From NCBI GenBank assembly GCA_029938715.1, contig JAOZUK010000003.1:8925-72924 (forward strand): a DNA stretch of 64,000 bases. Reading direction: 5' to 3'. Positions 863-4,602 of this stretch are shown piece by piece. The notes beneath the pieces were generated by a model. It was not told where the DNA came from, ran no database searches, and saw only the letters and a list, made by a program, of their open reading frames with translations. Position 1 is the first letter of the stretch. Each line of letters opens with the position of its first letter. A program made the translations under genes and the position numbers. Origin of the DNA: Bacteroidales bacterium (GTDB lineage Bacteria; Bacteroidota; Bacteroidia; Bacteroidales; GCA-2748055).

Positions 863-1144
863 ATGACAAAATCCAGTAAATTGCCACAATTCAAATTCGA
901 AAAATATGTAACTTCGAATACCAATGCGAATTACACTTTCCCATGGAAGAGATTGGTAAACCACAGGTTCTTCCGACTCGGTGCAGGTATAATTGTCGGT
1001 GCGTTGGCAGGATTGTTGTACTGGAAGTTTGTGGGGTGCCAAAGTGGCACCTGTCCACTAACATCCAATCCTTATAAAACAGTGATTCTGTTCTCCTTTA
1101 TGGGAGGTCTCTTTGCCAAAGATAAACCGGGTGAGCGAGGCTGA
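863..1144 (+). CDS. Small membrane protein, DUF6132-like (CQSGTCPLTSNPYKT motif)
   Basis: TM helix LGAGIIVGALAGLLYW followed by FVGCQSGTCPLTSNPYKTVILFSFMGGLF; true start may be internal to the ORF. Confidence 0.65.
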   Translation: MTKSSKLPQFKFEKYVTSNTNANYTFPWKRLVNHRFFRLGAGIIVGALAGLLYWKFVGCQSGTCPLTSNPYKTVILFSFMGGLFAKDKPGERG

Positions 1145-1159
1145 TATTAATCATTTCAA

Positions 1160-1807
1160 ATGTCAAGAATGAATACAGATCAAATACAAATCCGATATAC
1201 CTTACTGGCAGCGGATGACAACTGTTGTCTCTCCTGTGGGGGCGCAATAAATTATTCAAATGCCCATGAAGGGGAAGTCTGTGTCGATCTCGGAAGTGGA
1301 AAGGGTTCAGATGTGTTGCGCCTTGCAGACGAGGTGGGAGAGAATGGTTTTGTCTATGGAATTGATGTATCGGAAGGGATGCTGAAGAAAGCCCGGAAAA
1401 GTGCAGAGAAGCTTGGGATCGCCAATGTGGAGTTCGTACGTTCTGAATTGGAACAGATTCAGATTGAATCTGACTCTGTTCACCTGGTTATTTCCAATTG
1501 TACCATTAATCACGCATCCGATAAATTCAGGGTATGGAGTGAAATCGAACGAATCCTGAAAAAGAGCGGGAGGTTTGTGGTGAGTGATATCTATGCAATA
1601 ACTGAGGTTCCCGAGGAGTACAGGAACGATCCTCAGGCAGTGGCCGAGTGTTGGGCCGGTGCAGTCACAAAGCAAGAATATCTGGATACTCTCAACAGGG
1701 TCGGTTTCACCTCCATCGAGATCATTGAGGAGAGTAAGCCCTATGGGAAAGGTGAGGTAGAGGTTGTGAGTTTTACCATCGCCGGTAAAAAAAGATGTTG
1801 CAGTTAA
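1160..1807 (+). CDS. SAM-dependent methyltransferase resembling arsenite methyltransferase (ArsM-like)
   Basis: Motif I VDLGSGKGSDVLRLA; vicinal Cys pairs DDNCCLSCGG near the N-terminus and C-terminal KRCCS; ISNCTINHA motif as in ArsM-type enzymes. Confidence 0.75.
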   Translation: MSRMNTDQIQIRYTLLAADDNCCLSCGGAINYSNAHEGEVCVDLGSGKGSDVLRLADEVGENGFVYGIDVSEGMLKKARKSAEKLGIANVEFVRSELEQIQIESDSVHLVISNCTINHASDKFRVWSEIERILKKSGRFVVSDIYAITEVPEEYRNDPQAVAECWAGAVTKQEYLDTLNRVGFTSIEIIEESKPYGKGEVEVVSFTIAGKKRCCS

Positions 1808-1833
1808 TTTCCATTTAATAATTCAAATATAAA

Positions 1834-1929
1834 ATGAAATCGTTAATTAAAGTAACCAAGAAGGGAGATGGCAAAGTGGCACAGTGCTGTGCCAAGAATT
1901 CAAAGGCCGTCATGGGATGTCATGATTAA
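1834..1929 (+). CDS. 31-aa Cys-rich peptide, candidate radical SAM substrate/RiPP precursor: MKSLIKVTKKGDGKVAQCCAKNSKAVMGCHD
   Basis: Manual translation of ATG..TAA at 1834-1929 (below the ORF-track length cutoff); stop is 2 nt before the ATG of the radical SAM gene; CC and GC motifs at the C-terminal end. Confidence 0.65.
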   Translation: MKSLIKVTKKGDGKVAQCCAKNSKAVMGCHD

Positions 1930-1931
1930 TT

Positions 1932-3302
1932 ATGGAGGAACCCGGAAAGCTACGGCAGCCCGGGTTCCATCATTCCTATTTGGAAGAAATGGAATACTCG
2001 AAGCACAATATATTCTCTAAGATTGCAGATTCGGAAGGGTATTTTCTTGTGAACCCCCTCTCCAGGCAGGCAGATATTCTGGACCGGGATGAGGCGCAGG
2101 ATTACATGAATCACAACCTTTTGAGCAGGGAAGAGTACATTCAGAAAGGCTACCTGGTGGAGCCTGCTGAGGAAGAGAAGTTATTCAGGAAGAGCTATCT
2201 CAACTTTATTGATGAAAGGGATAGCGATGAGGTACAGCTCTTTTTTACACCCTGGTACAGCTGCAACTTTAACTGTTCTTACTGTTTCCAGGATGAGTAC
2301 ACCAATCCCCATGATCATGTGGAAGAGGAGGTGATTGATGCCTTTTTCAGGTATGTGGATGAAAAGTTTTCCCACAGAAGAAAGTACATTACCCTGTTTG
2401 GTGGAGAGCCACTCTTAAACTCACCCAACAAGAAAGAGACCATAAAAAAGGTGCTGGAAGGAGCTACTCATCGCAACCTCGATGTGGCAGTGGTTACAAA
2501 TGGCTACCATCTTGTAGAATATCTGGACCTTTTAAAGAGTGCCCCGATCAGGGAGATCCAGGTGACTGTGGATGGGACCCAAACGGTTCATGATTCGCGC
2601 CGGATGTTGAGGGGAGGGAAGGGCAGTTTTGACCGAATTGTTGAAGGAGTGGATGCACTGCTTGAAAACCGAATTCCGGTGAATATGAGGATGATTGTGG
2701 ATAAGGATAATGTTCACAACCTTCCTGAACTGGCCAGATTTGCCATCAGCAAAGGTTGGACCAGGGATCCCTTGTTCAAGACAGCCCTGGGAAGGAATTA
2801 TGAGCTCCACCATTGCCAGACCAACCAGACGAAACTTTTCTCCAGGATCGAGATGTACCAGGAGATCTACAAGATCGTGCAGGAACATCCGGAAGTACTG
2901 GAGTTTCACAAACCCTCTTTTTCCATAGCCAAATTCATTTTTGAAAATGGAGAGATGCCAGAACCCCTGTTTGATTCCTGTTCGGGGACAAAAACCGAGT
3001 GGGCATTTGATTATTCGGGACGTATATACTCCTGTACAGCCACAGTGGGAAATGTGGGTGATGAGCTGGGCACTTTTTACCCCCAGGTGAAACTGAACGA
3101 GGAGTTGATTGAAGAGTGGGAGGAGAGGGATGTGATAGCCATTAGCGAGTGTAACAACTGTCCGGTTCGACTGGCATGCGGAGGAGGCTGTGCAGCCATT
3201 GCAAAAACCAGGACCGGCAAGTTGCATTCTCCCGATTGCAGACCCGTAAAAGACCTTCTCGAGCTGGGGGTCGGGCTATATAGCCAGCTTAAAATTGTTT
3301 AG
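1932..3302 (+). CDS. Radical SAM/SPASM domain protein, putative peptide maturase
   Basis: CNFNCSYC (CX3CX2C) cluster motif, GGEPLLN, C-terminal SPASM-type cysteines (CSGTKTEWAFDYSGRIYSC ... CNNCPVRLACGGGC ... SPDC); ~110-aa N-terminal domain before the cluster. Confidence 0.88.
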   Translation: MEEPGKLRQPGFHHSYLEEMEYSKHNIFSKIADSEGYFLVNPLSRQADILDRDEAQDYMNHNLLSREEYIQKGYLVEPAEEEKLFRKSYLNFIDERDSDEVQLFFTPWYSCNFNCSYCFQDEYTNPHDHVEEEVIDAFFRYVDEKFSHRRKYITLFGGEPLLNSPNKKETIKKVLEGATHRNLDVAVVTNGYHLVEYLDLLKSAPIREIQVTVDGTQTVHDSRRMLRGGKGSFDRIVEGVDALLENRIPVNMRMIVDKDNVHNLPELARFAISKGWTRDPLFKTALGRNYELHHCQTNQTKLFSRIEMYQEIYKIVQEHPEVLEFHKPSFSIAKFIFENGEMPEPLFDSCSGTKTEWAFDYSGRIYSCTATVGNVGDELGTFYPQVKLNEELIEEWEERDVIAISECNNCPVRLACGGGCAAIAKTRTGKLHSPDCRPVKDLLELGVGLYSQLKIV

Positions 3303-3330
3303 AAAATCCCAATATATTACCTTTAGTACC

Positions 3331-4602
3331 ATGAAAAAGATCACAGCAAAAGAGTTTAAAAAGGAAGTACTACAGGGTGGCAATGTAGCCCTGGATTTCT
3401 ACTCCACTGAGTGTCCCCCCTGTGACGCCCTTGCACCCAAATTTGAATCGATGTCGGAGCTCTATGGCGAAGACATAAAATTTTTCAAGATTTTCAGGCA
3501 GGAGAGTCGAGACCTTGCTGAGAGCCTGAAGGTGAATGGTTCTCCAACGGTTCTGTTTTACAAAAATGGGGAACTGGTGGGCGAAAAGCTCACAGGTGGC
3601 ATTAAGCGATCTGATCTTATACGTAATCTTAACTCATTGATACCCGAAGAGAGGGTAGAGGAGATCCAAAAGAGTATTAAACCACAAGTTTCTGAATACG
3701 ATACTTTAATTATTGGAGGTGGCCCCGGGGGACTTACGGCTGGATTATATCTCTGTCAGGCAAAGATTAATGCAGTCCTGGTGGATACCATGTTGCCAGG
3801 AGGACAGGTCTCCACCACCCATAAAGTGAGTAACTATCCTGGTTTCGTGGACCCGCAACCTGGTTTTATGCTGGCACACTACATGTCGGAGCAGACCAAG
3901 CTTTGCGGAACGAAATATAAGGTTGCAGTGGATGTAACCAATGTTGATCTGGTCAATAAGACCATTGTGGTGGATGCCTATGAGACCATCAAGGCAAAGA
4001 AGATCATCCTGGCTACAGGAGCCTCTCCCCGCTATTTGGATGTTCCTGGTGAAAAGGAGCTAAAGGGAAATGGGATCTCCTATTGTGCCACCTGCGACGC
4101 CAAGTACTTTCACGATAAGGAAGTGATTGTAGTGGGTGGTGGAAACTCGGCTATTGAAGAGGCTGAGTTCATTTCCAAGTTTGCCGAAAGTGTAACCATT
4201 ATTCACCAGTTTGATCATCTGCAGGCCAATAAGGAAGCTCAGGAGAAGGCTTTTTCCAATCCGAGAATAAAATTCATTTTCGATACAGAACCCAGGGGAT
4301 TCGAGAAGAATGGAAACCGGATCAGGGTCTCCACAGAAAACCTGAAGACCGGAGAGAAAACGATTCAGGAGGCAGATGGGGCATTTATTTTCGTGGGGAT
4401 GAAACCCAACACCGATCTGATTCAGGATGAAATTGAAAAGGACCAGTGGGGCTACATAAAGACCAATGAAGATATGATGACCAGCATCGAAGGTGTGTAT
4501 GCGGTGGGTGATCTGAGAAGCAAGAAGTACCGCCAGATTACCACCGCAGTAGCGGATGGGACCATTGCAGCCATCTCAGCAACCCGGGAGCTGGATATTT
4601 AA
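3331..4602 (+). CDS. Thioredoxin domain fused to thioredoxin-disulfide reductase (FAD/NAD(P)H)
   Basis: N-terminal Trx with ECPPCD active site; C-terminal TrxR with GGGPGGLTAG, CATCD redox motif, GGGNSAIEEAEF; ATG at 3331 preferred over the ORF-track start 3295. Confidence 0.9.
   Translation: MKKITAKEFKKEVLQGGNVALDFYSTECPPCDALAPKFESMSELYGEDIKFFKIFRQESRDLAESLKVNGSPTVLFYKNGELVGEKLTGGIKRSDLIRNLNSLIPEERVEEIQKSIKPQVSEYDTLIIGGGPGGLTAGLYLCQAKINAVLVDTMLPGGQVSTTHKVSNYPGFVDPQPGFMLAHYMSEQTKLCGTKYKVAVDVTNVDLVNKTIVVDAYETIKAKKIILATGASPRYLDVPGEKELKGNGISYCATCDAKYFHDKEVIVVGGGNSAIEEAEFISKFAESVTIIHQFDHLQANKEAQEKAFSNPRIKFIFDTEPRGFEKNGNRIRVSTENLKTGEKTIQEADGAFIFVGMKPNTDLIQDEIEKDQWGYIKTNEDMMTSIEGVYAVGDLRSKKYRQITTAVADGTIAAISATRELDI

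Follow-up and report, generated by a model that had tools for sequence, protein, structure and literature searches.

A conserved short peptide gene and its three enzyme partners: a candidate radical SAM/SPASM peptide-modification cassette in Bacteroidota

A short open reading frame (ORF) of 31 amino acids (aa) lies in front of a radical S-adenosylmethionine (SAM)/SPASM enzyme gene in a 64,000-nucleotide stretch of a Bacteroidales genome (contig JAOZUK010000003.1, positions 8,925 to 72,924; hereafter the window). The locus raises the question of whether this frame is a gene and, if so, what its neighbors do with the product. A first-pass annotation had described five co-directional ORFs, the unannotated 31-aa frame among them, as a candidate operon for the modification of a Cys-rich peptide. 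All five are present in the first 4.7 kb of the window (863-1144, 1160-1807, 1834-1929, 1932-3302 and 3331-4602), together with a divergent regulator of the Crp/Fnr type. Here we report that the 31-aa frame is indeed a gene, and that its constant partners are a short ArsM-like methyltransferase, the radical SAM enzyme and a thioredoxin-thioredoxin reductase (Trx-TrxR) fusion, the DUF6132 gene at 863-1144 being accessory only. We consider it probable, with considerable room for doubt, that these genes form a cassette of the ribosomally synthesized and post-translationally modified peptide (RiPP) type, which would yield a cysteine-modified, non-exported peptide for intracellular thiol-redox or metal(loid) chemistry. 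The core features are as follows.

1160-1807, plus strand: short ArsM-like SAM methyltransferase, 215 aa; its homologs start at Met4 (1169)
1834-1929, plus strand: 31-aa precursor-like peptide, MKSLIKVTKKGDGKVAQCCAKNSKAVMGCHD, present in 39/39 loci
1932-1973, plus strand: RNA hairpin directly 3' of the peptide stop codon (fold z = -4.06)
1989-3302, plus strand: predicted radical SAM/SPASM peptide maturase; ORF open from 1932, conserved start at Met20 (1989)
3331-4602, plus strand: 423-aa fusion of a CPPC thioredoxin with a CATC thioredoxin reductase that lacks the NADPH motif HRRxxxR

Conservation and co-occurrence of the peptide gene

We compared the window with 38 further loci of the radical SAM gene (48-78% identity), of which 32 belong to genomes in the host's order and six to public contigs (Salinivirgaceae, Marinilabiliaceae, Ignavibacteriaceae and a 'Fibrobacter' metagenome-assembled genome). 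An ORF of 31-38 aa lies between the methyltransferase and radical SAM genes in 39/39 loci, and its plan is constant: a start of the MKSLVKK type is followed by a linker rich in Lys, which varies in length, and by a fixed end, AQCCAK-x6-GCHD-stop, of which the CCAK-x6-GCHD-stop motif adjoins the radical SAM gene every time. The first-pass suggestion that a conserved CC...GC peptide should precede homologs of the enzyme was thus borne out at every homolog examined, in these 39 loci and in the five further genomes described below. All 39 peptides agree at nine of the 16 core residues (A, C, C, A, K, G, C, H and D), and two more are near-fixed (37/39 and 38/39 copies). The third codon positions of the fixed residues vary, the invariant Ala and Gly using four codons each, and the invariant Cys, Lys, His and Asp positions using both of theirs. 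Core residues that stay invariant while their codons vary synonymously indicate purifying selection on a protein. The length of 31 aa is unremarkable in itself, since 102 ORFs with 25 aa or more overlap positions 1-9000 of the window; it is conservation that raises the frame above chance.

A locus that at first appeared to lack the peptide (L003) carries it 1.1 kb upstream, the insertion of a BRO-like ORF having moved the two genes apart. A BRO/KilA-like ORF is inserted between the peptide and radical SAM genes at L038:10450-11292, and a similar one lies near the cassette in L103 (14234-15070). Among NCBIfam models none matches the peptide, even at E = 10. The CC-x9-C spacing of the window's peptide (1834-1929) resembles the zinc-binding BTK motif.

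Co-occurrence was assessed in 295 genomes of the host's order. The radical SAM gene was found in 34, the peptide motif in 34 and both in 33; the unshared pair consists of a genome with only the end of the radical SAM gene, on a contig edge (G263), and a genome with an orphan peptide (G037), to which we return below. The Trx-TrxR fusion (E < 1e-100) was detected in 33 genomes, all of them positive for the radical SAM enzyme, and the enzyme-positive genome lacking a full fusion (G100) carries a shortened copy. In five genomes the fusion lies on a contig other than that of the radical SAM gene and is still 59-66% identical, compared with about 36% for the housekeeping reductase. Retention where the genes are unlinked indicates that the fusion is preserved by its function and not by linkage alone, and it is linked to the cassette by co-occurrence even in these genomes. 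The methyltransferase, present in 39/39 loci, is in its cassette form confined to cassette-positive genomes in this sample. The proposal that both enzymes belong to the same system as the peptide is therefore upheld. Moreover, a search of 396 Bacteroidota genomes with the peptide pattern, in which the enzymes were not used, recovered five further genomes outside the host's class, and in 5/5 the methyltransferase, peptide, radical SAM enzyme and fusion occur together. These data give good support to the existence of a specific set of peptide and enzymes. It is scattered through about 12% of the order, which marks an accessory function.

The radical SAM enzyme and the case for peptide modification

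Two features place the cassette, as judged from sequence, within the broad kind of radical SAM/SPASM RiPP systems. First, a conserved short precursor adjoins the predicted maturase. Secondly, the cysteines of the latter are complete: CxxxCxxC, all seven SPASM cysteines and Cys295 are invariant in 39/39 loci. The curated families closest to the enzyme mature Cys-rich peptides, and its scores against all of them are far below cut-off: CefB (NF038107; 152 bits, cut-off 600), TIGR04463 (137, cut-off 525), PapB (NF047865; 120, cut-off 340) and the SCIFF maturase (TIGR03974; 92, cut-off 425). The cassette would therefore fall outside each named maturase family tried. Homology to the peptide maturases begins at Met20 and ends just short of the C-terminus (positions 1-434 of 444 in the CefB profile), and the best sequence match in the PDB is CteB (5WGG/5WHY; 1.5e-14), which forms thioether bonds and holds the leader peptide in an N-terminal RiPP recognition element (RRE) (PMC8326336). 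Profile and structure comparisons placed the enzyme in no characterised family that modifies something other than peptides; placement in such a family is what the first-pass annotation had named as speaking against its proposal. PADLOC returned only fold-level matches (viperin and mad2, 47-79 bits), and a role in defence was dropped on that account.

Comparison with the named systems shows where the cassette stands apart. CefB and TIGR04463 are the highest-scoring families and align nearly end to end, but the Cys-every-fifth pattern of CefA is missing from the present precursor with its CC-x9-C core. Like the SCIFF/ranthipeptide maturases (CteB, TIGR03974) and PapB, the enzyme combines radical SAM and SPASM domains with an N-terminal extension, and a short Cys-containing precursor, conserved and not bacteriocin-like, lies just upstream. 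However, the core here has three cysteines, as opposed to six in about 45 residues in SCIFF, and an ArsM-like methyltransferase and a Trx-TrxR fusion are added. In the literature on the motif, on ArsM with radical SAM enzymes, on arsenic RiPPs and in Bacteroidales RiPP surveys we found no description of such a system, preprints and subscription journals being thinly covered.

The spacing of the two genes requires correction. Six homologs from related loci align from the window's Met20, and five of them start there; since, in addition, 1932-1973 forms a strong hairpin, the true start of the radical SAM gene is probably 1989, behind the hairpin, which suggests that the ORF extension 1932-1988 is noncoding. 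The gap between peptide and enzyme genes would then be about 59 nt, close to the median of 58 nt over the 39 loci (measured to the start of the conserved match), and the 2-nt gap reported in the first-pass annotation is a start-codon artefact. The radical SAM enzyme very likely modifies the peptide. The earlier proposal that the peptide is its substrate stands in the form of a partner and likely substrate, given the conserved peptide beside every homolog.

This reading should be held with some caution, since several points weigh against it. Modification of the peptide is a prediction from the genes. The co-occurrence p-values (about 2e-41 for the radical SAM gene and peptide, about 6e-43 for the fusion) ignore relatedness, which inflates them. 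The AlphaFold model of the radical SAM enzyme is poor (pLDDT, the predicted local distance difference test, 54) and unfit for geometry; SkfB and CteB are among its first structural matches, and its N-terminus (residues 27-95) has three strands followed by three helices, an RRE-like order, at low confidence. No Pfam model matched this N-terminal domain, and an RRE is suggested there by the order of predicted secondary structure and by homology to maturase N-termini. Finally, the 99%-complete genome G037 encodes an intact orphan peptide, MKTLIKKKEIAPKAKVAQCCAKISKTVAGCHD, at L098:9250-9350, and the radical SAM enzyme, the cassette methyltransferase and the fusion are all absent from it. The orphan may be a relic, or the peptide may persist or work unmodified.

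An unmodified peptide is the basis of one alternative, in which it would bind a metal (Zn, Cu or Fe-S) and the radical SAM enzyme would act on another target. The orphan in G037 agrees with this, as does the CC-x9-C core followed by a His, which offers four possible ligands; two peptide variants from other loci give a weak match to the Pfam BTK motif (13.8 and 14.5 bits; cut-off 24). Yet almost every peptide gene is accompanied by a radical SAM gene of the peptide-maturase type, which it directly precedes, and we regard this alternative as quite improbable. The G037 orphan adjoins genes for a 200-aa methyltransferase, a peroxiredoxin, a Fur-like regulator, Hdr-like proteins and TusA.

The methyltransferase, the reductase and the arsenic question

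The cassette methyltransferase misses the curated cut-off of the arsenite methyltransferase model (190 bits; cut-off 263). Its structural model is good (pLDDT 81), with ArsM and AS3MT as best structural matches, and C26, C114 and C164, kept in 43/43 cassette methyltransferases, align with C72, C174 and C224 of CmArsM, the As(III)-binding residues of that enzyme (PMC12608789). Unlike ArsM, the cassette enzymes have no N-terminal Cys segment and carry a vicinal CC beside the first triad cysteine. About 20 fixed positions set them apart, several near the active site (H118, W126, Y145, W165 and CC22-23), and canonical ArsM proteins from cassette genomes form a separate clade, divided from the cassette type by a long branch. 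The cassette enzyme is a divergent branch of ArsM, distinct from the canonical one and located outside the ars operons examined. In G262 (L078:6555-8585) the unlinked fusion adjoins another short methyltransferase of the ArsM-like type, which has a CC motif and shares 39% identity with that of the cassette. Several cassettes contain or neighbor a second class I methyltransferase, of 200-209 aa (L102:4504-5133, L103:3369-3995 and L098:9424-10026).

These relationships bear on the main rival explanation, a metalloid system. The CC-x9-C thiols would hold As(III) (or Sb, Se or Te), which the ArsM-like enzyme would methylate, and the Trx-TrxR fusion would supply the reduction that ArsM chemistry needs. 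The intact triad and the structural matches favor this explanation, and AS3MT is coupled to Trx/TrxR (PMC12608789). Furthermore, acr3 occurs in 27/33 cassette-positive but only 5/17 cassette-negative genomes (p = 0.0005). However, within a family the acr3 state is mostly the same whether or not a genome carries the cassette, which makes the association look like shared ecology. Canonical ArsM of 260-290 aa adjoins acr3 and arsC on other contigs of the same genomes, no acr3 above its cut-off was found on cassette contigs, and the positions fixed otherwise than in ArsM also speak against arsenic methylation. Membership of the cassette in an ars operon was rejected because canonical ArsM sits with acr3 and arsC elsewhere. 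We therefore hold a metalloid role to be unlikely, while ranking it first among the rivals. Of the metal(loid)-handling product proposed in the first-pass annotation, it is the arsenic part that is weakened.

The fusion resembles thioredoxin reductase and AhpF in its CATC pair, its FAD and NAD(P) domains and its N-terminal Trx fold. It differs from them in the fused N-terminal CPPC thioredoxin, and falls just below the cut-off of the thioredoxin reductase model (319 bits; cut-off 343). Both CPPC and CATC are kept in 32/32 fusions, whereas the NADPH motif HRRxxxR is absent from all 32 and a class-specific HQFD stands in its place. Because this motif is missing, the electron donor may be other than NADPH. 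The fusion carries no export signal.

We propose the following sequence of events. The short peptide would serve as precursor, its MKSLVKK N-terminus being recognised by the N-terminal domain of the radical SAM/SPASM enzyme and its AQCCAK-x6-GCHD core being the working part. The CteB-like enzyme would install a Cys-derived bond in the core, for which a thioether is the first guess. The methyltransferase would next act on one of the cysteine thiols left in the peptide, or on an atom that such thiols hold, and the fusion would keep the cysteines of the peptide, the methyltransferase or both reduced. The mature peptide would be an intracellular cofactor for thiol redox or metal(loid) binding, a view we base on a core that hardly varies and on the finding that no protease, exporter or immunity gene recurs across the 39 loci. 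In its most specific form, in which this modified peptide with its dedicated reductase would be an encoded counterpart of glutathione or bacillithiol in Bacteroidota, or a metalloid carrier, the proposal is tentative and less likely than not.

Two further alternatives concern the fate of the product. The peptide could be a scaffold from which a small redox cofactor is trimmed, as happens with pyrroloquinoline quinone (PQQ) or mycofactocin, whose systems likewise pair a short ribosomal peptide with a radical SAM/SPASM enzyme and show cofactor-like conservation. A near-invariant core fixed to the C-terminus, the dedicated oxidoreductase, the missing exporter and a patchy but wide distribution are compatible with trimming. 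However, the precursor shares no motif with theirs, the cassette has no conserved peptidase, further tailoring oxidase or dehydrogenase partners, and the reductase is of the thiol-disulfide type, which makes a scaffold rather improbable. A secreted antimicrobial or signalling RiPP would account for the layout of radical SAM/SPASM enzyme and short precursor, which is that of sactipeptides and ranthipeptides. The same want of export, protease and immunity genes counts against secretion, as do the nearly invariant rather than hypervariable core and a reductase without an export signal, and we judge it very improbable.

Should our preferred reading of a modified intracellular peptide be true, radical SAM peptides would gain a class coupled with an ArsM-derived methyltransferase and with a thiol reductase of its own. 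It would also follow either that the ArsM fold is used outside arsenic detoxification or that metalloids are handled by a peptide. A peptide gene missed by annotation models and tied almost one-to-one to three enzymes constitutes a defined substrate/enzyme set ready for expression.

Regulation and genomic neighborhood

The hairpin behind the peptide stop codon recurs in part of the sample: z falls below -2 at the same place in 17/39 loci, as against 0/39 and 1/39 for control stretches. The sequences of these hairpins are unrelated between loci, and U runs follow several of them. This fits a partial stop giving more precursor than enzyme, a layout to be expected where demand for precursor exceeds that for enzyme, and the hairpin at 1932-1973 possibly divides the expression of the two in the window. 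No Rfam family was found in positions 1-5000.

Three further features lie upstream of the core.

76-735, minus strand: divergent Crp/Fnr-family regulator (Pfam cNMP_binding 59 bits, HTH_Crp_2 49 bits)
734-759, no strand: perfect inverted repeat ATTTGACAGGA-TTTT-TCCTGTCAAAT, a candidate operator between regulator and operon, from a repeat search
863-1144, plus strand: DUF6132 small membrane protein with a GCxSGxC motif, accessory (Pfam 31.7 bits; cut-off 23.2)

The regulator and the repeat belong to the locus. The repeat, with perfect 11-bp arms and 26 bp overall, is common to regulator and operon, and it is the single site in the whole genome for TTTGACA-N10-TGTCAAA with at most one mismatch. 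It was not seen at the other loci compared, and Crp/Fnr genes, of more than one type, lie near 10/39 loci. The product of 76-735 is probably a local regulator.

DUF6132 occurs in 18/39 loci, with its two cysteines kept in 94%. The operon neighbors (n = 114) belong mostly to thiol and sulfur redox, with thioredoxins (23), DUF1847 (10) and DUF302 (10), and include DUF6132, rhodanese, a YgaP-like membrane protein and a FAD-dependent oxidoreductase resembling SQR. The genes 3' of the window's cassette (sialic-acid lyase-like, sialidase-like and others) are not common to the other loci and lie outside it. Positions 4658-9627, which hold N-acetylneuraminate lyase-like, sialidase-like (with Asp-box repeats), AlkD-like and glycosidase-like lipoprotein genes, form a separate sialic-acid/glycan cluster.

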